Assembly: GCA_019749875.1 (NCBI GenBank)
Contig: JAIEPK010000358.1
Span: 1-48,330 of the forward strand
Direction of reading: 5' to 3'
Length of the DNA: 48,330 nt
DNA from: Candidatus Binatia bacterium
GTDB lineage: Bacteria; Desulfobacterota; Binatia; UBA12015
The notes under the pieces are model-generated. The model was not told the origin of the DNA, ran no database searches, and worked only from the letters and a program-made list of their open reading frames with translations. This document shows positions 6,615 to 40,438 of the stretch, one piece after another. The stretch's first letter is position 1, and the number at the start of each line of letters is the position of its first letter. A program made the translations under genes and the position numbers.

Positions 6615-7787
6615 TCAGCGGCGCACGAAACGCGGCGCGAGCCACGCGAGCCACACCCCCGTGCCGATCATCCAGCACAGCGCCGCCGACGCGAGGTGCT
6701 CGAAGTAGGTGTGGCTCGTGTCGGCCGCGACGCGCGCGAGCAGCGCGAGCAAAATCCCGGCGGCGAGGACCACCACCGGCTTCGGCCGCCCGAGCGCCGC
6801 GTCGGCGAGGCCGAGGTGGCCGAGGCTCACGTGCGTCGCGACGCCGAACGCCATCAGCGAGAAGCCGCCGATGAAGAGCACGTGCAGCGCCGGCACGCGA
6901 AAGTCGGGCAGCAGGCCCGAGGCGACGAGACCGGCGGGCGCGAGCCACGCGGCGAGCCAGACCAGCTTGCGATGCAGGCCCGTCCTGCGCGGCAGCCGGT
7001 ACGCGCCGCCGCCCACCGCGAGCGCGAGCGCGACCGCGACGCCACGCACGATCGGCGCGCCGCGCACCGCGCCGAGCGACTCCGCGACCAGGCTCGCCGC
7101 GACCGTCACGCCGAGCGCAAGAAACGCCCACGCGACCCGTGTCTCGCGCGGCGATGAGAAGAGATCGGGCGGCGGCGGCGTGCCGCCGATCAGCGGCAGG
7201 ACGAGCGCACCGATGCCCATCACCAGGCAGAGGAACACGCCCTGCTGGATGAAGAGCGCGCCGAGCGCGATCGTCCACGGCGGTGCGTCGAGGACGAGGC
7301 GCGCGAGGATCAGCAGCGCGCCGGACACGCCGAGCAGCGCGGCGAGCGGCAGCAGCACGAATGCCGCCGGCGGACGCCGCTGCACGGTGCCGGCGCGCGC
7401 GCGCCGCACGGCGAACGCGAGCAGCAAGGTGAACAGCGCGAGGTAGCCGAGCTCCGCCGCGACGAAGGCGTCCACGACCAGTGCCGCACCCGTGAGCAGC
7501 AGAGCCGCGAGCGCCAGAGCGATCTCGCGACCGCTCGCGAGCGGCGCCGCGATGCGACGCGGCAGCGCGGTCCACAGGAAGCCGACCGCGAAGGCCATGA
7601 GAAACGCCTGCGTCTGGAGGAGCCCGTGCCGAAAGCACGAGTACGACTCGGTGAGCCCCACACCGTACAAGAGCCAGTGCCCGACGCCGATCCAGCCGAG
7701 CAGGACGCCCACGGGGAAGAACAGCCGGAATGGCTCCGAGCACACGCGGTCCGTCAAAGGCGGCACGGTCGGGGTTCCGGTGGTCAT
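6615..7787 (-). CDS. nnrS: NnrS family heme/copper membrane protein
   Basis: A 390-residue protein with about twelve hydrophobic segments and the NnrS order of motifs: an N-terminal [16 protein letters not shown], then [39 protein letters not shown] and a C-terminal [15 protein letters not shown]. NnrS proteins bind heme and copper and are usually made with nitrate/nitrite/NO metabolism genes, where they relieve nitrosative stress. The divergent position next to the molybdoenzyme operon fits this. The start could be ATG 7787 or the in-frame GTG 7799; ATG is preferred. The upstream region contains decayed tandem repeats. Confidence 0.88.
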
Positions 7788-7841
7788 CTGCTGCGTCACT
7801 GGCCCCGCGTCGATCGGCGGGCGTCGCGTCCTGCATAGCGT

Positions 7842-7994
7842 GACGTCGACCGCGGCACACGCCCGTACGCCACGTCGACCGCGGCACACGCCCGTACGCC
7901 ACGTCGACTGCGGCACACGTACCGGCGCGCGACGTCGCCGGGCGGCGCACGTACCGGCACCCGACGTACCCGCACCGCACGGCATCCGATGCGC
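7842..7994. repeat. Decaying tandem repeat, unit about 29-32 bases
   Basis: Units start with ACGTCGACCGCGGCACACG. The copies at 7843-7871 and 7872-7900 are identical over 29 bases. The next (7901-7931, 7932-7963 and one from 7964) are progressively diverged and slightly longer. They fill the divergent gap between nnrS and the cytochrome b operon. They may be a regulator-binding array or just slippage-derived; no protein-coding reading is convincing here. Confidence 0.7.
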
Positions 7995-8101
7995 GACGCG
8001 TCGCGCGCCTCGCGGCCGCGGGGTGCGACGACGCGTCCGCTGCGGAGCGCGACGCGCCCGCCGCTTGACTCGCGAGCCGGCGCGGAGCATCGCATCGGGC
8101 A

Positions 8102-9148
8102 GTGCCCGTCGAACCACGCTCCACGACGACACTGGACCCGAGCGCCGTGCGCAATGGCCTGCTCGCGGTCGGCGTCGCGCTCGCGCTCGGCTGGCTCGGC
8201 AGCGGCGGGCTGCGCTGGTTCGACGCGGCGCTCGCGGGCTACCTGCTCGGCACCCTGTTCGCGATCTTCGGCACCGTCTACCGCTACTCGGTGTGGCTGC
8301 GCCGGCCACCGACGGCGCGGCTGTCGCGGCGCGGCTGGGAAGCGCTGCGGCGGGGCGGCTGGCCGGCCGTCAAGCAGCTGCTCGGGCTCGGGGTGTCGAA
8401 CCTCGCCGCGCAGACCTTCATCCGCGAGCGCTCGTCATCGCGCTGGGTCGCACACCAGCTGGTCTTCTGGGGCTGCGTGATCGCGGCCGCGATCACGTTC
8501 CCGCTGACCTTCGGCTGGCTGCACTTCGAGTCGGTGGGCGACGACGCGACCCGCTATCGCGCGTTCGTCGGTCCGCTCGCGACCATCGCCTTCGACGCGC
8601 GCGGCGCGTTCGGCTGGCTGGTCTTCCACGGCCTCGACGTCGCGGCGATCCTGGTCCTCGGCGGCGTGTTCCTCTTCCTCGGTCGCCGCGTGCGCGACCC
8701 GGGTGCGATCGCGGTGGAGCGCTCGACGGACTTTCTCGCCCTCGCGGGACTCTTCGCGGTCTCGGTGACCGGGCTCATGCTCACCGTCTCGACGCTGTGG
8801 ATGGGCGGTCGCTTCTACACCTTCCTCACCACGACGCACGCGCTGACGGTGATCCTCGGCCTCATGTACCTGCCCTTCGGCAAGCTGTTCCACGTCTTCC
8901 AGCGCCCGGCGAACCTCGGCGTGCAGCTCTACCGTGCCGCCGGCGACGCGGGACCGCAGCAGCAGTGCAGCGAGTGCGCGGCACCGTTCGCGTCCGTGCT
9001 GCAGATGGGCGACCTGAAGGACGTGCTGCCGCAGGTCGGCTTCGACTACGCGCTGCCCGCGGGCGGCAGCTGGCAAGACGTCTGCCCCGCGTGCCGGCGC
9101 CGCGTGATCACGCAGGCGCAGGCGGGGCGCGTGGGAGGGTTCCGCTGA
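8102..9148 (+). CDS. b-type cytochrome subunit, NarI/DsrM-like, with C-terminal Cys4 site
   Basis: A 348-residue integral membrane protein with about six transmembrane helices. Histidines fall in helices ([43 protein letters not shown]) as in the NarI/DsrM type of quinol-oxidising cytochrome b. After the last helix comes a cytoplasmic-looking tail with two cysteine pairs (QQCSECAAP and DVCPACRRR, about 40 residues apart), which resembles a zinc ribbon or rubredoxin-like site and is not usual in NarI. It starts at GTG 8102 and its stop overlaps the ATG of the molybdoenzyme gene by one base (TGATG). It probably passes quinol electrons to the soluble subunits. Heme ligands are inferred. Confidence 0.75.
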
Positions 9149-11379
9149 TGGCGACGCTGCCGCTCGCCGAGGAGGAGCTCGTCGCGCGCTTCGGGCCGCA
9201 TCTGAACCGGCAGCCGCCGGGCGGCTGGAACGCCGGGCTGGACATCGACCGCGAGGTACCGACGCACTGCTGCTTCTGCGGCCAGCAGTGCGGCATCGTG
9301 CTCAAGGTCAAGGACGAGCGCGTGGTCGGCTTCGAGCCGCGCTACGACTTCCCGTTCAACGAGGGCAAGCTGTGCCCGAAGGGCGTCAAGCGCTATCTCC
9401 AGGGCAGCCACCCGGACCGCCTGCTCGCCCCGCTCGAGCGCGACCCGGCCGATCCCGCCGGCTTCCGGCAGATCTCGTGGGAGACGGCGCTCGAGCGCAC
9501 CGCCGCGGAGATCCGCCGCATCCAGGCGGCGTACGGACCGAACGCGTTCGCGATGCTCTCGGGCGTGTCGCTGACCAACGAGAAGTCGTACCTGGTCGGC
9601 AAGTTCGCGCGGCTCGCGCTCGGCACGGCGAACCTCGACTACAACGGGCGGCTCTGCATGGTGTCGGCCGGGGCGGCGAACAAGAAGGCGCTCGGCATCG
9701 ATCGCGCGTCGAACCCGTGGAGCGACATCCGGCTCGCCGACGTCGTCTTCATCGCCGGCGCGAACGTCGCCGAGTGCGCGCCGATCACCACCAGCTACGT
9801 GTGGCAGGCGCGCGATCGCGGCGCGAAGCTGATCGTCGCGGACCCGCGCGTCACGCCGCTCGCACGCACCGCCGACGTCTTCCTCGGGCTGCGCCCCGGA
9901 ACGGACTCGGCGCTGATGGGCGCGATCCTGAACGTGCTCATCGCGCGCGACTGGCTCGACCACGCGTTCATCGCGGCGCACACCGAGGACTTCGAGGAGG
10001 CCGCACGCGCGGTCGCGGACCACACGCCGCAGTGGGCAGCGGGCGTGTGCGGCGTCCCGGCGGCGCGCATCGAGCAGGCCGCCGAGCTCTGGGGCACGTC
10101 GCGTACCGGCATGCTGCTGCACGCGCGCGGCATCGAGCACCATACGAAGGGCGTCGAGAACGTGCTGTCGTGCATCAACCTCGGGCTCGCGACCGGCAAG
10201 TACGGCAAGCCCGGCTGCGGCGTGACCACGATCACCGGACAGGGCAACGGCCAGGGCGGTCGCGAGCAGGGTCACAAGTGCGACCAGCTGCCCGGCAACC
10301 GCGACATCACCAACCCCGAGCACCGCGCCCACGTCGCATCGGTCTGGGGCTGCGACGAGAGCGAGATCCCGGGCAAGGGCCTCACCGCGCAGGAGATCGT
10401 GAACGCGATCCACGCGGGCGAGATCAAGGGCCTGCTGTCGATCTGCTTCAACCCCGCGGTGTCGCTGCCCGACACCAGCTTCACCGCCGCGGCGCTCGAC
10501 AAGCTCGAATTCTACGCCGTCATCGAGTTCTTCCTCTCCGAGACGGCGCAGCACGCCGACGTGGTGCTGCCGGGCTCGCTGCACGAGGAGGACGAGGGCA
10601 CCAGCACGACCGTCGAGGGCCGCGTCGTCAAGATCAACGCCGCCATCAAGCCGCCGGGCGAGGCACGGCTCGACTGGCAGATCCTGGTCGACCTCGCGCA
10701 TCGCCTCGGCCGCGGCCAGTACTTCCCGTACGGCTCGACCGAGGAGATCTTCACCGAGCTGCGCCGCGCGTCGCACGGCGGGACGGCCGACTACGGCGGC
10801 ATCACGTGGCAGCGCGTGGTCGACGAGCAGGGCGTGTTCTGGCCGTGCCCGAGCGAGGGACATCCCGGCACGGAGCGGCTCTACGAGGGCGGGCGCTTCT
10901 ACACCCCGAGCGGCCGCGCGAAGTTCCACCCGGTGCGCTGGCGGCCGCCGGCGGAGGAGATCGACGACGCGTACCCGATCTGGCTCACCACCGGGCGCGT
11001 CGTGAGCCAGTACCTGTCGGGCACGCAGACGCGGCGCATCGGGCCGCTCGTCGAGCAGTACCCGGAGCCGCTGTGCGAGATGCACCCGCAGCTCGCCGCA
11101 CGCCTCGGCGTCGCGGACGGCGACCTCGTCCGCGTGCGCTCGCGCCGCGGCGAGATCACGCTGCCGGCGGCGGTGGTCGCGACCATCCGTCCCGACACCG
11201 TGTTCATCCCGTACCACTGGCCGGGAAGGCAGGCCGCGAACCAGCTCACGCAGCGCGCGCTCGATCCGATCTCGAAGATCCCCGAGTACAAGGTGTCGGC
11301 GGTCGCGATCGAGCGCCTCGGTCCGGGTCGCGGCACGACCGACGCGCGCGACATGTCGCTGGAAGGAACGCCGGCTTGA
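9148..11379 (+). CDS. Molybdopterin oxidoreductase, NarB/NasA-like (probable nitrate reductase)
   Basis: A 743-residue catalytic subunit of the DMSO-reductase superfamily. The N-terminal [4Fe-4S] motif uses C41, C44, C48 and C76 ([10 protein letters not shown], then EGKLCPKG). The motif [19 protein letters not shown] puts a cysteine (C170) at the molybdenum ligand position, as in NarB/NasA/NapA and unlike the aspartate of NarG. The C-terminal molydop-binding domain is present. There is no Tat signal, so it works in the cytoplasm. It lacks the extra C-terminal [2Fe-2S] domain of some NasA proteins. A GGGAGGG ribosome site (9133-9139) precedes ATG 9148. Nitrate is the likely substrate from the RLCM-type motif and the NnrS/HPP context, but a related oxyanion cannot be excluded. 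Confidence 0.85.
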
Positions 11380-12014
11380 GCCCGCTCGCACGCCGCGACG
11401 AGAAGGTCTTCGTCATCGACCAGAGCCGCTGCATCGGCTGCAAGGCGTGCGTGCAGGCGTGCGCCGAGTGCGGCACGCACCGCGGCCACTCGATGATCCA
11501 CCTCGAGTTCGCCGACCGCGGCGCGTCGACGCAGACCGTGCCGATGGTGTGCATGCACTGCGCCGATCCGACCTGCGCCGAGGTGTGCCCCGCCGATGCC
11601 ATCAAGCAGAACGAGGACGGCATCGTGCAGTCGGCGCTCAAGCCGCGCTGCATCGCGTGCGCGAGCTGCGTGCTCGCCTGCCCGTTCGGCGTGCCGAAGC
11701 TCATGGTCGAGATGAACCAGATGATGAAGTGCGACATGTGCTACGACCGCACGTCGCTCGACCTGGCACCGATGTGCGCGTCGGTGTGCCCGAGCCAGGC
11801 GCTGTGGTTCGGCACGCGCGAGGAGTTCGCCGACGCCCGTCCTGGTGTGCTGATCGACGAGTTCCTGTTCGGACGCCAGAGCGTACGCACCAAGGTGCTG
11901 ACGGTCGCACGCGAGGACGGCCCGCTCGACGTGGCGAGCGGCCGCACGGCGCGCGCGTGGCAGGACGATCCGTTCGGCCTCGAGGAGAGCGCGTGGCCCG
12001 GCAACGCACGGTGA
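11376..12014 (+). CDS. Four-cluster [4Fe-4S] ferredoxin subunit, DmsB/NrfC-like
   Basis: A 212-residue electron-transfer protein with four cysteine groups: [11 protein letters not shown] (C19 onwards), [27 protein letters not shown] and CDMCYDR...[10 protein letters not shown]. This gives four [4Fe-4S] clusters in the order typical of the beta subunits of membrane-linked molybdoenzymes. I place the start at TTG 11376, which overlaps the stop of the molybdoenzyme gene as TTGA and has GGAAGGAA (11361-11368) at good spacing; no ATG gives the full first motif. No signal sequence. It should wire the cytochrome b subunit to the molybdoenzyme. Confidence 0.88.
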
Positions 12015-12029
12015 TCGCGGAGGGCGTTG

Positions 12030-12527
12030 ATGGCTGAAGCCCGGGTTCCGAAGTGGCGCACCGACTTCCCGTTCACCGCCGAGGGCGAGGACGAGGTCAC
12101 GCGGCGCGAGTTCGCGCGCTACCTCGTGCTCGCGTCGGCGGCGTTCGCCGCGACCAGCGTCGGCGTCGCGGCATGGACGTCGTCCCTGCCCGTCCTGCAC
12201 GGCCCCGCGCGCGCGATCGTGCCGGCGCGCGAGCTGCCGCCGGGCGGCACGGTGCTGTTCCGCTACCCGGAGGAGCACGACCCGGCGATCCTGGTGCGCC
12301 TGCACGACGGCGCGCTGCGCGCGTTCAGCCAGAAGTGCACGCACCTCGGCTGCGTCGTCTACTTCGAGGCCGCGCGCGACCGCATGATCTGCCCGTGCCA
12401 CGACGGCGTGTTCGCGGCGCGCGACGGCGTGGTGCTCGCGGGGCCGCCGCAGCGGCCGCTCGCGCGCATCGCGGTGGAGGAGCGCACCGACGGCATGATC
12501 TGGACGCTCGCGCAGGAGGTGGGCTGA
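12030..12527 (+). CDS. Tat-anchored Rieske [2Fe-2S] protein
   Basis: A 165-residue protein with a twin-arginine motif TRREFARYL (R25, R26) before a single hydrophobic helix (about 31-50), then a Rieske fold. The cluster ligands are C103, H105, C121 and H124 (CTHLGC and CPCHDG), with C108 and C123 placed for the stabilising disulfide. The second box reads CPCHDG where bc1-type proteins usually have CPCHGS. It is therefore an extracytoplasmic, membrane-tethered high-potential carrier encoded with a cytoplasmic molybdoenzyme. The start is ATG 12030 with GGAGGGC just upstream; TTG 12027 is an alternative. A bc-type or quinol-oxidation role is inferred. Confidence 0.9.
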   Translation: MAEARVPKWRTDFPFTAEGEDEVTRREFARYLVLASAAFAATSVGVAAWTSSLPVLHGPARAIVPARELPPGGTVLFRYPEEHDPAILVRLHDGALRAFSQKCTHLGCVVYFEAARDRMICPCHDGVFAARDGVVLAGPPQRPLARIAVEERTDGMIWTLAQEVG

Positions 12528-12721
12528 TGGCGCGGCCACACGAGATCTCGAGCGCGCTCGGCGTGTTCGTCGGCGTGCTGCTGTCGCTGCAGATTTTTCT
12601 CCTGACCGTCGGCCTCGACGCCCTGCACGCGCGCGACGCGAGGCTCGCCTGGACCGCGGCGGGCTGCTCGGTCGTCCTCGCGCTCGGATCGGCGGCGTTC
12701 TACCGGCACCTGCGCCGATGA
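12527..12721 (+). CDS. Small membrane protein of the molybdoenzyme operon
   Basis: A 64-residue protein with two predicted transmembrane helices (about residues 10-28 and 43-60) joined by a short loop LDALHARDARLA. Start ATG 12527 overlaps the Rieske stop by one base and follows an AGGAGGTGGG ribosome site; its own stop overlaps the HPP start as ATGA. This tight packing argues that it is a real accessory subunit. I do not recognise a family. It could be a small cytochrome-associated subunit or an assembly factor; no cysteines or histidines form an obvious cofactor site. Confidence 0.7.
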   Translation: MARPHEISSALGVFVGVLLSLQIFLLTVGLDALHARDARLAWTAAGCSVVLALGSAAFYRHLRR

Positions 12722-13401
12722 GCGCGGGGCGAGGCCCGGAAGCGCCGCCGCCCGGCGTCAAGCCGTCTCCGGGACCGATCGGCGGCGAGCTGGTGCACGT
12801 GCTGCGCGGGCTCGCGCACCGCTTCCAGATCCCGGTGCTCGTCGAGCACCACTCGCGGCTCGGCATCCTCGGCCTGTTCGCGTTCGTGAACGGCGTCGTG
12901 TCGATCGGCCTCATGGCCGCGGCGGCGCTCGCCACCGGTGCGCCGTTCATCTTCCCGTCGCTCGGGCCGACGGCATTCCTGCTGTTCTACACCCCGACGC
13001 AGCCGGCCGCGTCGCCGCGCAACACCATCGGCGGGCATCTGATCGGCGTCGGTGCGGGCTATCTTTCGCTGGTGGTGTTCGGCTTGACGACGCGCGGCCC
13101 GGCGCTGGCCGAAGGGGTGGCGTGGACCAACGTCGCGGCGGCGGCGCTGTCGCTCGGCCTGACCAGCGGCGCGATGGTCTGGTGCAAGGTCCCGCACCCG
13201 CCCGCGGGTGCGACCACGCTCATCGTGGCGCTCGGCATCCTGCGCGCGCCGTGGCAGCTCGCGGTGCTGATGCTGGCCGTGTGCCTGCTCGTGCTGCAGG
13301 GGATCGTGATCAACCGTCTCGCCGGCATCGACTACCCGCTCTGGGCGCCGCGCGCGGCCGGGCCCGGACCGGGGGCGACGCCTTCCGGCGGCACGGCCTG
13401 A
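12718..13401 (+). CDS. HPP family membrane protein (probable nitrite transporter)
   Basis: A 227-residue protein with about four to five transmembrane helices and the defining HPP motif in CKVPHPPAGATTLIVALGI (HPP near residues 159-161). The conserved PSLGPTAFLLFYTP and SPRNTIGGH also match. HPP proteins of cyanobacteria and chloroplasts have been linked to nitrite transport, which suits a position at the end of a nitrate-reductase-like operon. The start ATG 12718 overlaps the previous stop by four bases. The N-terminal 20 residues are Pro/Gly-rich and probably disordered. The operon appears to end here, before a separate dipeptidase gene. Confidence 0.85.
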   Translation: MSAGRGPEAPPPGVKPSPGPIGGELVHVLRGLAHRFQIPVLVEHHSRLGILGLFAFVNGVVSIGLMAAAALATGAPFIFPSLGPTAFLLFYTPTQPAASPRNTIGGHLIGVGAGYLSLVVFGLTTRGPALAEGVAWTNVAAAALSLGLTSGAMVWCKVPHPPAGATTLIVALGILRAPWQLAVLMLAVCLLVLQGIVINRLAGIDYPLWAPRAAGPGPGATPSGGTA

Positions 13402-13466
13402 GCGCGCCGTCCGGCCGGCACGTCGCGCCGTTGAAGCCGGACGTCCGCGCGGATAGCGATGGCGGC

Positions 13467-14582
13467 ATGTCCTCCGTCGCCCCCGTCTCCGCCGCCCCTG
13501 CCCGCTCGCGCCTCGACTGGCGCGACCACCGCAACGACCGCGACGCCTGGACGCGCGCGCTCGGCATCTCGCGCGAGGCGATCGACGTCTACCTCGCGAG
13601 CGACGTCATCGACCTGCACGTCGACTCGTTCATCTGGACGCGCATCTTCGGCTACGACCTGCGGCGCCGGCACGGCCACGGCCTGCTCGGCGCGCGCGCC
13701 TACTCGATGGTCGACATCCCGCGCGTGCGGGAGGCGGCGCTCACCGGTGCGATCTGGGTCATCACCACCAACCCGTGGCAGAGCACCGCGCGCCGCCCGG
13801 ACGTGTTCGTCGAGAACGTGCGTCGCTTGCAGGGGATCCTCGAGAGCGTGCCGGAGGACGTCGCCGTGGTGCGCAACGTCGCGGAGTACCGCCGTGCGCG
13901 CGCCGCGGACAGGCACGCGGCGTTCATCGGCATCCAGGGCGGCAACGCGCTCGACCGCGACCCGTGGTCGCTCGACCTCATCCCCGACGACCTCGTGGTG
14001 CGGATCACACTCGTGCACCTGACCAACTCCCGGCTCGGCGTCACCAGCGCGCCGAAGGGCGGGCGCACGGGCGAAGGCCTCACCGAGCTCGGCCGCGACT
14101 ACGTCCGCCGCATGAACGAGAAGCGCATCCTGGTCGACCTCGCGCACATCAACCGCGAGGGCTTCTTCGACGCGATCGCCGTGCACGACCGGACGATCCC
14201 GTTTCTGGTCACGCACACCGGCGTGTCGGGCGTGCACCCGCACTGGCGCAACCTCGACGACGAGCAGCTGCGCGCGGTCGCGAACGCCGGCGGCACGGTC
14301 GGCATCATGTACCACGCGCCGTTCCTCGGCGACCCGTGGCTCGGCGGCCACGCCGAGACCATCGTCAAGCATATCGCCCACGTCGTCGACACGATCGGCG
14401 AGGACCACGCCTCGATCGGCAGCGACTACGACGGCGCGATCCATCCGCCGCGCGACATGCCGACGATCCTCGAGCTGCCGCGGCTGGTCGAGCCGATGCT
14501 GCGTCGCGGCTGGAGCGCCGAGCGGATCGGCAAGATCCTCGGCGGCAACTTCCTGCGCGTGGTCGAGGCCGTACGCGGCTGA
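13467..14582 (+). CDS. Membrane dipeptidase-like protein, peptidase family M19
   Basis: A 371-residue amidohydrolase-fold protein. The zinc motif HxD is H51-V-D53 (DLHVDSF); the later histidines are in [15 protein letters not shown] and [13 protein letters not shown], and the aspartate is in GSDYDGAI. At the position of the metal-bridging glutamate (GxEGG in renal dipeptidase) it has Gln157 in GIQGGNAL. That change could mean one metal site, altered chemistry or another substrate. No signal peptide is evident at ATG 13467, so it is probably cytoplasmic. It is the first gene after the HPP gene, separated by 65 bases, and may have its own promoter. Confidence 0.8.
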
Positions 14583-14727
14583 CGTCCACACCGGCTGCGC
14601 CGGCCACGAGGGGATGGAGACGCACCGGGCGTTTTCATCCGACGGACGCCGCGGCAGCCGGCACGGCGTGCGCCGGCGTCAAGAAGAGGCCTTTTCGAGG
14701 CCGCGCCCGCTTCGTACACTCCGCGCC

Positions 14728-17700
14728 ATGCGCAGCGGCGAATCGCTCTCGGCGGCCGGATCCTGCGTCCGCAAGCTGGTCGGTCTCCTCCTGGTCGCGT
14801 CCGTGCTCGGCCTACCCGGCGTCGCGCGGGCGCATCGCGCGTACCTCGTGCCCGACAACCACACCGACTACGGCTGGAACGCGACCACGGCGGCGTACGA
14901 GGCGTCGATGCTGTCCGAGCTCGACTACTACCTCGGGCGCATCGCCGCGACCGCAGGCAACCCGCCCGACGAGCAGGCCCGCTTCATGGCGGACTGCTGG
15001 TACTACCTGTGGCTCTACGAGAAGAACCGCACCCCGGCGCAGTTCCAGTCGCTGATCGCGGCCATGCAGTCGGGACACGTGACGGTGCCGCTCAACCCGT
15101 TCGTGACGCTCTACGGCGCGATTCCCACCGAGGCGGCGATCCGCGCCGGCTCGTACCCGGGACGGATCGAGCGCGCGTACGGCGTCGGCTTCTCGATCGC
15201 CCAGGACATCGAGAACCAGACCACCCCGTGGGGCCTCGCCAGCATCTGGGCCGGCAGCCGCGTCAAGTACACGTGGAAAGGCGTCTGCGGCTGCGCCACC
15301 CAGGCGCCGTTCGCCGACCAGACGCACGAGGTGTTCCGCTGGCAGGGCCCGGACGACCAGACGCTGCTCCAGAAGTGGTACGCATTCGACAACAACCAGT
15401 CGTGGGGCGGCTACGCCGAGGCGCGCTTGCACCTGTCCCAAGCAGGGATCCAGAACTCGATCACGCACTTCGCCGCGCGGCCACCGTTCCTGCCGATCAC
15501 CGGGCTGTTCGGCTACGGCTGGGACGACGTCAATTACCAGAGCACGAGCTTCGAGTCGGTGGTCGCGGCGTGGAACGCGGCGCATCCCGGCGGCGACACG
15601 GCGCGCGTGTCGAACGGCGTCGACTACTTCCAGGACCTCGAGTCGTACGCCGGCCAGCTCCCCACGCTGCGCGGCGGCTGGGGCAACGACTGGGATCTGT
15701 GGCCGGCAGCACTCGCCGAGCAGACCGCGCGCACCCGCCGCGCGATCGAGCGCCTGCGCACCGCCGAGGCGCTCGCGACGCTGGTGCACGCGCACGACGC
15801 GAGCTTCTGGCCGTCACGCCAGGCCGCGCTCGAGGCGGCGATGGTCGACTACCACAAGTACTTCGAGCACGGCTGGGGCGACGGCGGCGTCGGGCTGCAG
15901 TACGTGATCGACAACAAGCGCGCCTGGGCGTCGAGCATCGCCGGCACCGTCGCGACGGTCGACGCGCAGGCCGGCGCCGCCGCGGCGAATCTCTTCGCCA
16001 CGCCCGACGAGGATCGCTTCGTGGTCTTCAACCCGCTCGCGTTCGCGCGCACCGACTACGCCGACGTGCCGGTCACGGGCGCCGGACCGTGGATCGTCAC
16101 CGACGTCGCGAGCGCGACGGAGGTGCCGAGCCAGGCGGTGACGATCGGCGGCCAGAGCTATCTGCGCGTGCTCGCCGCCAACGTGCCGTCGCTCGGCTGG
16201 CGCGTGTACCGCTACGCTCCGGGCACGCCCGCGAGCCTGCCGAACGCTGCGACCGTCGCCGGCAACCGCATCGAGAGCGCGCTCTACCGCGTCGATCTCG
16301 GCACGCGCGGCGAGCTCACCAGCGCCTTCGACAAGCTCGCCGCGCGCGAGATGGCGGGTGCTGCGCTCAACGACTTCGGCAGCGGCACGTCGGCTGGCTT
16401 GACGGTCGAGAACGCGGGGCCGGTGTCCGTCACGCTGCGCCGCGACGTCGCCGGATCACCCGCGCGCCGGGTGCGCGTGACGCTCGCGCTCGACGTCGAC
16501 CGAATCGAGATCGAGGACGAGATCCTGCAAACGGCGAGCGGCGAGCGGACGTACCGCTTCGCGGTCAACCTGACGGCACCGCAGATCCGCTTCGAGGAGG
16601 TCGGCGCGATCGCGCGCCCCGGGCTCGTCGCGCAGGGCGGCGACTTCCTGCCCGGCACGCGCTCGGATTTCATGACGCTCAACCACTTCGCGAGCTTCAC
16701 GAGTGCAGGCTACGTCGTCACCCTATCCAACTGGGACGCGTTCGCGATGAAGATCGGCAGCAGCACGCCGACCAGCTTCGACCTCGGCGGAGCGGACGTC
16801 CGCGTGCTCGCGGCGGGCAATCCGTCGAGCAGCGACATCTCCAACCAGGGCGGAGACGCGTACTTCCTGAACCGCTTCGCGCTGCACGGCGCGAGCGGTG
16901 CATACTCCGGCGCCGCTGCGATGCGCACGAGCCTCGCGCACCAGAACCCGCTGCGCGTCTTGGCGCTCGGTCGGAACCAGAGTGGGCCGATCACCGCGGC
17001 GACGGCGAGCCTCGTGTCGATCGACGCGCCCGGCGTGGTCGTCACCGCCGTCAAGCCAGCCGAGGAAGGCGAGCGGGGCGTCGTGGTGCGCGCATGGGAG
17101 CTCGACGGATCACCGGCGAGCGTCGCGATCGACGCCGCGGCGCTCGCGCCGACCGCGGCGCACCAGGTGTCGCTGGTCGAGACCGACGTCGCCGGAGCTT
17201 CGCTGTCGGGCGGCGTGGTCGACGCGACGATCGGCGCCAACCAGATCAAGGCCTGGCGCATCGTGCCGGCGAGCTCGTGCGTCGAAGAGACACCCGGCGA
17301 CAACTGCCCGTGCACCGCGAATCCGTCGCAGGCCGATGGCGACGGCGACGGCATCGGCGACGCATGCGACGACTGCCCCGCCGTCGCCGACCCGGCGCAA
17401 CAGGACGCCGACTTCGACGGCACGGGCGACGCCTGCGACCTGTGCACGACCACGATCCCGGGCCAGACCGCGTGGGCGAAGCGCGGCCTCGTCGCCGGCC
17501 GCGTCCACGACGGCGTCCCCGGCAACGACCGCTTGACCGTCAAGGGCCGGTTCCGCATGGCCACCGGCGCGTTCGGCATCGACCCGCTCGCCGACGGGCT
17601 GCGGCTGCAGATCCGGGCCGCGAACGGAGCCCCGCGCGTCGACCTCACCCTGCCGCCGGGCAGCTCTGCAGCGCCGGGTCCAGGGTGGTCGCGCAACGGC

Positions 17701-17970
17701 CCCGGGACCGCGTACACGTTCCGCGACCTCACCCCGGGCGGCAGCGGCGGGGTGAAGCGCGCGACCGTCCGGGACAAGGGGTCCGGGCTCGTCGAGGTGA
17801 CCCTCGCCGCGAGCCTCGGCAGCTACGCGCTCTCCCCCGCGGACCTGCCCCTCGCACTGACGATCGTGCCCGGCGGGGCGAGCGCCAGCGCCGCGGGCGA
17901 GTGCGGCGAGGTCGACTTCGCGCCGAGCTGCGCGGCCAACACGGCCGGCACGACGCTGCGCTGCAAGTAG
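14728..17970 (+). CDS. Exported GH38-like glycoside hydrolase with thrombospondin-3 repeats
   Basis: A 1080-residue protein with a Sec signal peptide (residues 1-35). The mature N-terminus PDNHTDYGW carries the HxDxGW zinc motif of GH38 alpha-mannosidases (H45, D47). D160 in [14 protein letters not shown] is placed like the family nucleophile. After the catalytic part come beta-sandwich regions. Two thrombospondin type 3 calcium repeats follow near 860-905 ([14 protein letters not shown], then [14 protein letters not shown]). The final module of about 150 residues starts around [13 protein letters not shown] and is shared in type with other exported proteins here. The upstream frame (to 14614) is non-signal filler, so ATG 14728 is preferred. 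Mannosidase activity is an inference; the fold match is partial. Confidence 0.7.
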
Positions 17971-17998
17971 GTCCGCGTCCCCGCACGACGCCGGGCGG

Positions 17999-18056
17999 AC
18001 GCCACCGCGGACGACAGGCCGCACACCGCACACTGCACGCCACCGCGGACGACAGG
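17999..18056. repeat. Perfect 20-base direct repeat upstream of metH
   Basis: ACGCCACCGCGGACGACAGG occurs at 17999-18018 and again at 18037-18056, start to start 38 bases, separated by CA-rich sequence. It lies in the 198-base gap between the GH38-like gene and metH, about 110 bases before the metH start. I found no cobalamin or SAM/SAH riboswitch consensus in this gap, so the repeat is the only visible candidate control element. Confidence 0.6.
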
Positions 18057-18168
18057 TCACCCACGATCGTCGCGCGAAACGGGATGCCTCCGCCCATCCC
18101 GTCGGCTAGACTCGCGGACTCCACTCCGCGCCGACCATCCGGCGCGCCCGGGTAGAAGGGACCAGCAG

Positions 18169-21870
<3,702 letters not shown>

Positions 21871-37167: not shown

Positions 37168-40104
37168 CTAGCGCCGCGGTGCCTTGCGCCCCTTCTTCAC
37201 CTTGATCAGCGTGACGTCTTCGGAGCGCACCTGCACGGCGCCGCCGTCTGCCGGCGTGAAGGTCAGATCGACGGCCACGGTCACCTCCCCCGCCGTGCGT
37301 AGCTGCTTTGCGAGCGCCGGCGACAGCCCGATCCGGACAGCGACCGGCCCCTCCTTCTTCACCTTCTTCTTGACGGTGCGGAACGGCGGCTTCGGCGCCG
37401 CACCGGCCGCGAGGGCGGACGCGGTGAGCGCGCCCGTTCCCGGTGACACCACGAGCGTACCCGCTCCCGGTGCGAACACGTTCAGGAGGGGTCCGGCGAC
37501 GGTCGTGTCCAGCGAGGCGACGGGGCGGACGGTGTAGACGGCCTCGCAGGTGATCCGGCGGTCCGGATCCGGCCCCTGCACCGGCATGAGGCCGGTGGCC
37601 GTGTCCGCGAGGGTACACGAGATCGTGATCGGCTCCCCTCGGCCGATGAGGCTCGACGAGCCCACCCAGGGACACGCCGGGGCAGGCCTCTCGGAGCTGA
37701 TCGAGACGTCGGACCAGCAACCGGTCGACAAGAAGTAGAACGGCACCTGCTTCGGGTACTGGAAGTAGACGGCGCCGGCGATGGCGGCCTGGACGTCGCC
37801 ATCCTCGGCGAGGACGCCGTCCTCCGCCGTGCACAAGGAGCGCACCGGACAGAAGTCGCGCACGAGGGTGCACTGGAACGGGGTGGGCTTGAAGATGTCG
37901 AATGAGGTCAGATACGGAACGAGGAACGAGCAGCTCGACCTGACGCTCCGCGCCGCGAGCGTGAAGGCGTAGGTCGCCGGCGTCGGATCGGTAGCACCGT
38001 CGAGCGTCACCGCCCGCACGTAGAGCGTGTGCGCCCCGAGCGGCAGGTTGTAGGCGACGTACGGCGACGTGCAGCGCTGGAACGTGCCGGCATCCACCCG
38101 GCACTCGAAGTTCGCACCCGGCGGCGTGCTCGTGAACTCGAACAGCGGCGCCGAGGACGACACCGCCGTCGGCCCGTTCGTGATCGTCGTGTCGGGCAGC
38201 GGCAGGATGCGGAACGTCCGGTTGACGATCTCGCTCTCGTTGCCGGCCTGGTCGTTGGCGATGCCGTAGACGACGTGGTTGCCGCTCGCGGTGACCGTCC
38301 CGCCGCACGGCTGCGAGCCGAAGGCCCCGAACGACGTCGGCGGCGCCGGCGGATCGACCACGCAGAAGCGGTTCCGGATTCCCGAGCTCGGCGCGGCATC
38401 GGTCACGTCGAGATTCACCACGACCCCGGTCAAGTATGCACCCGACGCCGCCGTCGTGCCGCTCAGCCTGAGCTGCGCTACCGGCGGCGTCTGGTCGACG
38501 ACCAGGAGCCGCGAGGCCGGCGTCGGGTCGGTGCCGAACGCGTTGCTGGCGCGAACGGAGAACACGTGGTCGCCGGCGTCCAGAGCGGGCGACGTGTACG
38601 GCGACGTGCACGGCTCGAAGTCGAGGCCGTCGAGCGCGCACTCGAAGGTCGCATCCGCGGGCGGGATCGCTGCGAACTCGAAGGTCGCAAAGGCGCTGAT
38701 CGACGAGGTCGGCCCCGACGTGATGACGGTGTCCGGTATGCCGGAGGTCGGCGGGACGTCGCGGCTGACCCGGATCTGCATGGGGCTCGCCTCCTCCGCC
38801 TGCGCCCAGGCGACGACGGGCACCCCGCCGCTCACGGTGAGGCTCGGCGTGATGCCGTCGAGGAAGGGGGTCTCGTTGATCGGGCTCGCGCCGCCGTCGA
38901 CCTCGATCCAGGCGGTACCCGCGTCGTCGAGGCGCTTGACGCGGATCTCCTCGTTGTTGTCGTACTGGCTGAAGGCGACGTAGGGGACGCCGTCGATCGA
39001 GGTCAGGCTCGGATGCTGGCCCGCGCCACCGCCGGGGAGATTGATCGGCTGCGCGCCGCCGACGACCTCGGTCCAGCCCGTGCCCGCCTCGTTCAGCCTC
39101 GCGACCCGGATCTGAAAGCTGAACTCGTCGGCCTCACTCCAGGCGACCCAGGGGACGCCGCCGATGCCCGTCAGGCTCGGGCTGGCGGCGTACTTGTCGG
39201 GATCGTGGTTGACCGGGGCCGGACCGGAGCCGAGCTCGACCCAGGCGGTCCCGGCGTCGTTGAGCTTGCTGACGTGGATCTTCGGGTCGCCGTAGCCCTC
39301 CTGCCAGGCGACGAAGGGCACCCCGCCGATCGAGGTCAGGCTGGGTCCACCGGCCTGGGCGGAGGCGTCGTGGTTGATCGGGTTGCTCCCGCCCACCACC
39401 TCGGTCCACGCCGTTCCGGCGTCGTTGAGGCGGCTGACCCGGATCCGCGCCTCGGCGACGTTGGGCTCGGGCTGCTCCGCCCAGGCGACGTACGGGACGC
39501 CGCCGACGTCGGCGAGGCAGGGGTCATACGCGTTCTGGGTCGCGTCGTGGTTGATCGGGTTCGCGCCGCCGACGACTTCGCTCCAGCCGGTGCCGGCTTC
39601 GTTCAGCTTGGCGACCCGCACCTTCTGGCTGGTGCCGTCGTATTCGATCCAGGCCACCCAGGGCACGCCGCCGATCGCGGCGACGTGCGGGCGGAAGGCG
39701 TTGTCGGTCGGCGCGTGGCTGAGCGCGCCGCCGACATCGACCCAGTCCGCTCCTGCACCGTCGAGCTTGCTCACGTGGACGTCGGACTCGGTGGCGCTGG
39801 GGTGCGCCTCCCAGGCGACGTAGAGCGTGCCGTCGACGTCGGCGATGCTTGGATTGACCGCCTCGATGGCGGCGTCGTGCGTGATCGGGCTCGGCCCGCC
39901 GACGATCTCCTGCCACGCCGCCCGGGCGGCGGCCGGAGCGAGCAGCGTGACGCCCCAGGCGACGACGAGGGACGCGACGACACGCCACCGCGCGCCGTCG
40001 CCCCTGCGGAACGCGGAGCTCACGGTCCACCTCGAACGGCCCGCCGGCGTGATGGTCGCGAGTGCGGCGAGCAGCCACGTGGTGGCGTATCGTCGGATCT
40101 GCAT
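37168..40104 (-). CDS. Exported seven-repeat propeller protein with two stacked signal peptides
   Basis: A 978-residue protein. From about residue 62 there are seven repeats of about 55 residues, each with a PSLTxIGGVPxVAW core and an IRVxxLNEAGTGWxEVVGG end, enough for one closed propeller. Two domains of the type FECxxDGxxFxxCTSPY follow, then an unrecognised C-terminal part. The N-terminus holds two export signals: MQIRRYATTWLLAALATI at ATG 40104 (ribosome site GAGGAGGA) and, 27 codons later, one from GTG 40023 (ribosome site GAGGTGG) with WRVVASLVVAWGVTLLAPAA. The first matches the signal peptide of the 45383 gene. GTG 40023 may be the ancestral start. It lies 40 bases after a DUF4242-like gene. 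Confidence 0.82.
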   Translation of the reverse strand: MQIRRYATTWLLAALATITPAGRSRWTVSSAFRRGDGARWRVVASLVVAWGVTLLAPAAARAAWQEIVGGPSPITHDAAIEAVNPSIADVDGTLYVAWEAHPSATESDVHVSKLDGAGADWVDVGGALSHAPTDNAFRPHVAAIGGVPWVAWIEYDGTSQKVRVAKLNEAGTGWSEVVGGANPINHDATQNAYDPCLADVGGVPYVAWAEQPEPNVAEARIRVSRLNDAGTAWTEVVGGSNPINHDASAQAGGPSLTSIGGVPFVAWQEGYGDPKIHVSKLNDAGTAWVELGSGPAPVNHDPDKYAASPSLTGIGGVPWVAWSEADEFSFQIRVARLNEAGTGWTEVVGGAQPINLPGGGAGQHPSLTSIDGVPYVAFSQYDNNEEIRVKRLDDAGTAWIEVDGGASPINETPFLDGITPSLTVSGGVPVVAWAQAEEASPMQIRVSRDVPPTSGIPDTVITSGPTSSISAFATFEFAAIPPADATFECALDGLDFEPCTSPYTSPALDAGDHVFSVRASNAFGTDPTPASRLLVVDQTPPVAQLRLSGTTAASGAYLTGVVVNLDVTDAAPSSGIRNRFCVVDPPAPPTSFGAFGSQPCGGTVTASGNHVVYGIANDQAGNESEIVNRTFRILPLPDTTITNGPTAVSSSAPLFEFTSTPPGANFECRVDAGTFQRCTSPYVAYNLPLGAHTLYVRAVTLDGATDPTPATYAFTLAARSVRSSCSFLVPYLTSFDIFKPTPFQCTLVRDFCPVRSLCTAEDGVLAEDGDVQAAIAGAVYFQYPKQVPFYFLSTGCWSDVSISSERPAPACPWVGSSSLIGRGEPITISCTLADTATGLMPVQGPDPDRRITCEAVYTVRPVASLDTTVAGPLLNVFAPGAGTLVVSPGTGALTASALAAGAAPKPPFRTVKKKVKKEGPVAVRIGLSPALAKQLRTAGEVTVAVDLTFTPADGGAVQVRSEDVTLIKVKKGRKAPRR

Positions 40105-40144
40105 GGGCGTGTCCTCCTCGGTTCTCGGACGGGTGTCGTTGCCC

Positions 40145-40438
40145 TCAGTGCGCGAGCGCCAGGACGATGCGGTCCACCCGCACGCCGGCGCGCGCGAACA
40201 GCTGCTCGACCAGCTCGCTCGACGCCGCATCGATCAGTGACAGCATCGCATCGTCCTCGGGCACGAGCGTCGCGTGCACGCAGCGGATCGGGCTGCCGTC
40301 GCGCCGCATCGCCGCGGCGCTCGCGCGCACGCGCGCCGTCGCATCGCGAAAGGCGTCGACCGTGATGCCGGGTCGGTAGTGCTCGACCAGGAAGCTCTGC
40401 GCGCCGCGGCCGGCGGAACGGGTCCGTCCGGGACTCAT
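40145..40438 (-). CDS. DUF4242-like small protein, copy 1
   Basis: A 97-residue protein with the pattern FLVEHYRPGITVDAFRDA, then RDGSPIRCVHATLVPEDDAM and RAGVRVDRIV. This resembles the DUF4242 (SCO4226-like, reported nickel-binding) ferredoxin-like alpha/beta fold, in which PEDE-type acidic residues are conserved. No signal peptide, so cytoplasmic. A close paralogue sits at 46326-46661; by eye about five in six residues agree over the shared 80 or so. Each copy lies directly upstream of an exported-protein gene and behind the same 34-base motif. Function unknown; a sensor or accessory role for the following gene is only a guess. Confidence 0.75.
   Translation of the reverse strand: MSPGRTRSAGRGAQSFLVEHYRPGITVDAFRDATARVRASAAAMRRDGSPIRCVHATLVPEDDAMLSLIDAASSELVEQLFARAGVRVDRIVLALAH

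Follow-up and report, generated by a model that had tools for sequence, protein, structure and literature searches.

The window analysed here comprises positions 1 to 48,330 of contig JAIEPK010000358.1 of Candidatus Binatia bacterium (assembly GCA_019749875.1). It carries on the plus strand a run of six genes (8102-13401) which probably encode a membrane-bound, cytoplasm-facing quinol:nitrate oxidoreductase with a catalytic subunit from the assimilatory NasC branch; we put the probability of this reading at about 0.7. The first gene (8102-9148, GTG start) is an open reading frame (ORF) for a cytochrome b membrane subunit of 348 residues with six predicted transmembrane helices. It is followed by the gene for the catalytic subunit, a NasC/NarB-like nitrate reductase of 743 residues predicted to hold molybdenum bis-pyranopterin guanine dinucleotide (Mo-bisPGD; 9148-11379), and by that for an electron-transfer iron-sulphur (Fe-S) subunit with four [4Fe-4S] clusters (11376-12014, TTG start), recognized by Pfam Fer4_11. 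The remaining genes encode a Rieske [2Fe-2S] protein (12030-12527; PF00355, motifs CTHLGC and CPCHDGVF), a two-helix membrane protein of 64 residues resembling DUF6755 (12527-12721; PF20540 at 24.7 bits, below the threshold of 27) and an HPP-family membrane protein, a putative nitrite (or nitrate/nitrite) transporter (12718-13401; PF04982, 93.6 bits). The junctions are, in order, -1, -4, +15, -1 and -4 bases, and the TTG start of the Fe-S gene lies within the 3' end of the catalytic gene, in a 4-base overlap. An initial annotation, made from the letters of the sequence, had described this packing, with overlaps of 1 to 4 bases, one 15-base gap and a divergent nnrS gene, and both coordinates and junctions were found exactly so. 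Its domain calls for the molybdopterin oxidoreductase, four-cluster ferredoxin, Rieske, HPP and NnrS proteins likewise agree with Pfam and NCBIfam.

The initial annotation had assigned the catalytic subunit to the NarB/NasA type, with an RLCM ligand motif and no twin-arginine translocation (Tat) signal. The motif is present, and no twin-arginine was found at the N-terminus. Cysteines 41, 44, 48 and 76 are the presumed [4Fe-4S] ligands, and the Mo ligand is Cys170, followed by Met171. Among NCBIfam models NasC (NF047855) ranked first with 780 bits, which is below its cut-off of 1100 and leaves the protein outside the NasC equivalog; the formate dehydrogenase (FDH) alpha model TIGR01591 came second with 603 bits, below its cut-off of 666. 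Sequence matches in the PDB were headed by FDHs, with Nap also among them. Because both leading scores fall short of their cut-offs and the PDB matches are led by FDHs, score alone is not decisive. Membership in NarGHI can be set aside, since the ligand is Cys170 instead of Asp and the narG model gave 47 bits against a cut-off of 1084. The same holds for NapAB, with its Tat-exported NapA and its NapB: the N-terminus has no twin-arginine, and the NapA models gave 271-279 bits against cut-offs of 904-931.

In a maximum-likelihood tree, whose references were drawn from plasmid and E. coli records with no cyanobacterial NarB or AioA sequence among them, the family formed a single clade of 30 rows (SH-aLRT 100), with NasC as its sister (93) and outside the FDH group. 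Met171, Thr363, Arg372 and Glu373 were found in 91 of 91 aligned family members, as was the Cys170-Met171 pair. At these four sites the references for nitrate reductase show Met/Thr, Thr/Asn, Arg and Glu, respectively, whereas those for FDH show His/Gln, Arg, no Arg, and Asp. The presence of nitrate-type residues in every member decides the question between the two enzymes, and on these sequence grounds the subunit belongs to the NasC/NarB/NapA nitrate reductases. Identity as an FDH, an outcome that would have refuted the original assignment, was rejected from the tree position and from the invariant Met and Thr in place of His and Arg.

The association of this subunit with its partners is not peculiar to the window. 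When 84,980 species genomes were screened with two peptide patterns, at least 582 relatives came up, of which not all belong to this family. By record title the best 80 are assigned to Actinomycetota, Acidobacteriota, Armatimonadota, Binatota, Myxococcota, Verrucomicrobiota, Omnitrophota, Planctomycetota, Deinococcota, Hydrogenedentota and some further groups. Going by these titles, of which some from metagenomes may be mis-binned, the module is present in at least ten bacterial phyla. It is also carried by isolates of Geothrix, Anaeromyxobacter oryzae, Desertimonas flava, Pelagicoccus and Deinococcus, including Deinococcus psychrotolerans. The loci had been picked on the catalytic protein only, and those with flanks of at least 3.5 kb on the upstream and 4.5 kb on the downstream side were counted (n=54, including the window). 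Cytochrome b was found in 52, the Fe-S subunit in 53, the Rieske protein in 53, the DUF6755-like protein in 36, HPP in 13 and NarK in 13, the DUF6755 and HPP counts being lower bounds since the neighbourhood hidden Markov models may miss diverged genes. Many loci are close relatives, and the counts are thus not independent events. Nevertheless, recovery of the same genes in 52 or 53 of 54 loci chosen on one protein is more than chance would give, and the co-occurrence of Rieske and cytochrome b genes with the catalytic gene, on which the initial annotation had staked its proposal, is borne out almost everywhere. Pairwise distances for the catalytic, cytochrome b, Fe-S and Rieske proteins were correlated over 71 loci (r 0.85-0.93; none of 500 permutations as high). 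As shared ancestry inflates such correlations, they argue that the unit travels together, and do not imply contact between its subunits.

A Pfam search with the cytochrome b subunit gave no match, and the QmoC and TmcC anchors match it weakly. Its AlphaFold2 model (pLDDT 93.5) has NarI as the best Foldseek match above noise (probability 0.96, template modelling (TM) score 0.49 by NarI length); matches to G-protein-coupled receptor folds, with TM scores of about 0.2, were dismissed as noise. H118, H246 and H264 are invariant where covered by the alignment, with a spacing of 18 between the last two, and position 176 is His in 65 of 85 sequences and Asn or Gln in the other 20. From the helix positions and basic loops we infer a cytoplasmic-side pair of heme ligands, H118-H264, and an outer pair, H176-H246. 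The basic loop at 67-111 and the C-terminal tail are both predicted to lie on the cytoplasmic side. This tail has a motif of four cysteines, Cys4 (C289, C292, C328 and C331), which is complete in 83 of 87 sequences; in the remaining four loci C292, C328 and C331 have been lost together, as would be expected of a metal site. The subunit is best read as a distant relative of NarI that has invariant histidines and carries a Cys4 domain at its C-terminus.

The Fe-S subunit shows the 16-Cys ferredoxin pattern of the FdnH/PsrB/DmsB class, with FdnH (1kqf_B, E 2e-26) as its best PDB match. In the Rieske protein the Tat signal noted earlier was located as a twin-arginine, TRREF. The motif is present in 76 of 78 sequences, the exceptions being a contig-end fragment and a mis-framed extraction; R25 and R26 are invariant in the alignment, and the signal helix resembles an anchor that stays uncleaved. 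The nearest solved folds to the AlphaFold model (pLDDT 92.4) are AioB of arsenite oxidase, which is the best PDB match (TM score 0.76 by AioB length, 1.6 A), and a Chlorobaculum Rieske protein. The cysteine pair that normally forms the disulphide is retained. In bc1-type clusters a Ser and a Tyr raise the potential; here their places are taken by Gly or Ala and by an invariant Phe. The influence of these residues has been described, along with potentials of +130 to +225 mV for AioB compared with some +300 mV for bc1 (PMC3758308), and the cluster here is predicted to be of lower potential.

In the mechanism that we propose, the cytochrome b would oxidise quinol and its heme or hemes would pass electrons to the four-cluster subunit, from there to the [4Fe-4S] cluster of the catalytic subunit and finally to Mo-bisPGD, where nitrate would be reduced to nitrite on the cytoplasmic side. 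The Rieske protein, a conserved subunit, would face outward on its Tat-helix anchor and probably act at the outer quinol side, with a possible part in quinol oxidation. HPP would export nitrite, exchange nitrite and nitrate, or both, from the slot that NarK fills in sister loci. In its main lines this supports the initial annotation, which had read the operon as a membrane-coupled nitrate reductase built on an assimilatory-type catalytic subunit.

This last assignment accords with the distribution of the two transporters. HPP was found in 20 of 90 loci and NarK in 22, never both at one locus (Fisher p 0.0016, uncorrected for kinship of the loci), which suggests that HPP replaces NarK. In several loci, and in the operon of Deinococcus psychrotolerans, where the small protein is annotated as DUF6755, NarK directly follows the Rieske or DUF6755 gene and so occupies the position of HPP in the window. 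Nitrite transport by HPP proteins has been reported (Maeda et al. 2014, cited in PMC7438415). That work and the mutual exclusion with NarK support the role in moving nitrite that had been suggested for the window's HPP. Among Acidobacteriota loci L075-L098, from Geothrix and its relatives, HPP or NarK occurs by strain near the same operon. A further link of HPP with nitrate reduction was seen on a Curtobacterium plasmid, where an HPP-family gene (L145:6427-6867) lies two genes past a different NasA-type nitrate reductase.

Other neighbours of the module include NarK-type transporters, NirB, NirD, NirA, NrfA, nitric oxide (NO) stress repair proteins of the RIC/YtfE type and Rrf2 regulators. Small proteins of about 90 residues, with no Pfam or NCBIfam match, recur beside it in five Binatota loci and in 12 of Actinomycetota type (for example L103:11488-11757 and L058:12148-12426). 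In the Verrucomicrobiota loci L112, L111 and L123 it adjoins a CPR-like flavodoxin/FAD/NAD reductase, a possible partner of a sulphite or nitrite reductase.

The genome from which the window comes has two family members, the window copy and another on contig C149 (locus L002, 1-4359), with catalytic subunits 67% identical. The second locus starts with NirD, followed by cytochrome b, the catalytic subunit and the Fe-S subunit; contig C171 of the same genome ends in NirB and is likely the neighbour of C149. In the tree, the window copy and that of genome G003, whose operon is 86% identical, group with Actinomycetota copies and not with the NirB-linked copies of Binatota, a pattern suggestive of transfer between phyla. 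Neither NarG nor NapA was matched in the window genome, in G003, G023 or G032, or in four further genomes reached through named records. Geothrix fuzhouensis SG12 carries the operon together with HPP and gave no match to NarG or NapA. G003 also gave no match for NirB, NrfA or NirK, and only a NirA/CysI-like protein below the cut-offs. Genome content was tested family by family, and the search for NirS (PF02239) carries no weight as the control genomes gave no match. These gene contents favour, but do not prove, a window copy that reduces nitrate to nitrite for export, and the presence of a second, NirBD-linked copy makes a dissimilatory role for it the more likely one.

Several observations weigh against the reading of the operon as a quinol:nitrate oxidoreductase of respiratory type. 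The Foldseek E-value of the cytochrome b against NarI is 0.41, which is not significant. Nor is a pair of hemes universal, since 20 of the 85 sequences have Asn or Gln where the outer ligand is presumed. The window genome has no match for NrfA or Cu-type NirK, hence no obvious periplasmic nitrite sink. NarG is also present in four of five Geothrix and in A. oryzae, so that the module is not the sole nitrate reductase there. Finally, the existence of a NirBD- or NirA-linked branch argues that a respiratory function is not inherent in the module. It could instead be an assimilatory enzyme fed from the quinol pool rather than by NAD(P)H or ferredoxin, supplying NirBD or NirA, with the membrane partners as electron supply only. 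The adjoining NirB, NirD or NirA genes in Binatota, Verrucomicrobiota and Hydrogenedentota branches speak for this, as does the NirD-headed copy in the window genome itself. On the other hand, neither NirB nor NirA adjoins the module in the window copy, in that of G003 or in most loci from Actinomycetota, Acidobacteriota and Armatimonadota, and in many of these HPP, NarK, NrfA or NO-stress genes are found instead; we consider this explanation unlikely overall. Physiology may be respiratory or assimilatory according to lineage.

A different topology, in which the Rieske protein carries the catalytic subunit outward through Tat to form a periplasmic nitrate reductase, would follow the example of arsenite oxidase, whose AioB is the closest solved structure to our Rieske model. 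In that enzyme AioA lacks an export signal and leaves the cytoplasm together with AioB. A derivation of AioA from NasC/NasA has also been put forward (PMC7331816), which makes the AioB-like partner suggestive and is what motivates this alternative. The basic loop and Cys4 tail of the cytochrome b, however, are predicted on the cytoplasmic side, where Fe-S docking is expected. The module is also associated with NarK or HPP and with NirB or NirA, and the latter two are cytoplasmic enzymes; export of the catalytic subunit therefore appears improbable. Within the cytoplasm-facing arrangement, the Rieske protein and cytochrome b might split electrons as in a Q-cycle, one going to the Rieske protein and a periplasmic acceptor, the other to nitrate. 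Such a scheme was proposed for the nar operon of Haloferax mediterranei, which has a Rieske protein (NarB) and a cytochrome b (NarC) (PMC2483277), and the near-constant retention of the Rieske gene (53 of 54 loci) fits it. Yet the cytochrome b is not of bc1/b6f type, having no Pfam match and a NarI-like fold, and no conserved dedicated periplasmic acceptor was found in the loci, so that we regard it as a rather unlikely variant. As for an FDH, or an enzyme for another oxyanion, the TIGR01591 score and the leading PDB matches are set against an FDH score that is below its own cut-off and lower than the NasC score, the uniform nitrate-type residues and the nitrate and nitrite genes nearby, and this seems very improbable indeed.

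The preferred reading, a cytoplasm-facing quinol:nitrate oxidoreductase, has no exact counterpart among known systems, and no prior description of one was found in the open-licence literature. With NasC and NarB it shares the branch, the Cys-Met motif, a single [4Fe-4S] cluster, a length of about 710-740 residues and the lack of a Tat signal, but those enzymes use NAD(P)H partners or soluble ferredoxin with no anchor, whereas cytochrome b and the four-cluster subunit are present in 52 and 53 of the 54 loci here. A 2020 survey stated that canonical four-cluster or membrane anchor subunits accompany no member of the NasA/NasC branch and that NasA/NasC serve nitrogen assimilation exclusively (PMC7331816); in gene content the present loci directly contradict the former statement, and they probably contradict the latter. 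In gene composition the set matches a complex iron-sulphur molybdoenzyme (CISM), with a Mo subunit, a four-[4Fe-4S] subunit and a membrane anchor. Like NarGHI, it would use quinol, a b-heme anchor, a four-cluster Fe-S subunit and a cytoplasmic Mo subunit; unlike NarGHI, its Mo subunit is not of the NarG family and has a Cys rather than an Asp ligand, the operon has no NarJ gene, and the Rieske protein, DUF6755 and the Cys4 tail are additions. AioAB resembles it in joining a NasC-related Mo subunit to a Tat-dependent Rieske subunit, but AioA has a 3Fe-4S cluster and no protein ligand to Mo, and AioAB has neither cytochrome b nor four-cluster subunit; with its Cys ligand and four-Cys motif, our Mo subunit falls outside that family, and the likeness to AioB is limited to the Rieske fold. 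The haloarchaeal nar operon (PMC2483277) is the sole precedent named for a Rieske protein and cytochrome b in a nitrate reductase cluster (NarGH), yet its catalytic subunit is of NarG type and outside the cell and its cytochrome b is of bc1 type, both unrelated to those of the window. The HPP transporters of Maeda et al. 2014 are alike in being PF04982 proteins with an HPP motif beside nitrate reduction genes; here the gene is operon-linked to a membrane nitrate reductase in place of NarK.

The divergent nnrS gene (6615-7787, minus strand; PF05940, 107 bits) has the position and orientation originally noted, but it lies outside the conserved module, and a functional part in it was rejected because no more than 2 of the 54 loci have nnrS. 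The intergenic region separating nnrS from the operon holds a tandem repeat (7843-7957; 29-base unit, 2.7 copies, 97% match) and, after it, one with a unit of 17 bases. A promoter and terminator scan of the operon gave nothing above chance. Elsewhere the window encodes an M19 dipeptidase (within 13122-14579), a B12-dependent methionine synthase (17971-21867) and two large ORFs of 1118 and 1021 residues (14614-17967, and 37171-40233 on the minus strand) without Pfam match at 1e-6.

Standard annotation would label these genes as assimilatory nitrate reductase or molybdopterin oxidoreductase, and as a consequence nitrate respiration, or ammonium-forming reduction where NrfA adjoins, may go unnoticed in bacteria from soil, sediment and wastewater that belong to the Actinomycetota, Acidobacteriota, Armatimonadota, Binatota, Myxococcota and other phyla. 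Culturable hosts exist in Deinococcus, where a strain has the operon on a plasmid, and in Geothrix, Desertimonas flava and Anaeromyxobacter oryzae. The two copies in the window genome lend themselves to a comparison of assimilatory with dissimilatory use in a single organism. A testable role is offered for HPP, for the unnamed DUF6755 protein and for a Rieske subunit of low-potential type. Quite tentatively, and with more doubt than belief, one might go further and see in at least ten phyla a separate class of respiratory nitrate reductase, built from a NasC-type subunit and a cytochrome b/Fe-S/Rieske module, with the Rieske protein taking part in quinol oxidation, as a nitrate-reducing variation on the Rieske/cytochrome b principle, and the Cys4 tail as an extra redox or docking site; such a class could illuminate how AioAB gained its Rieske subunit. 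An unrecognised route of nitrate respiration may thus be widespread.

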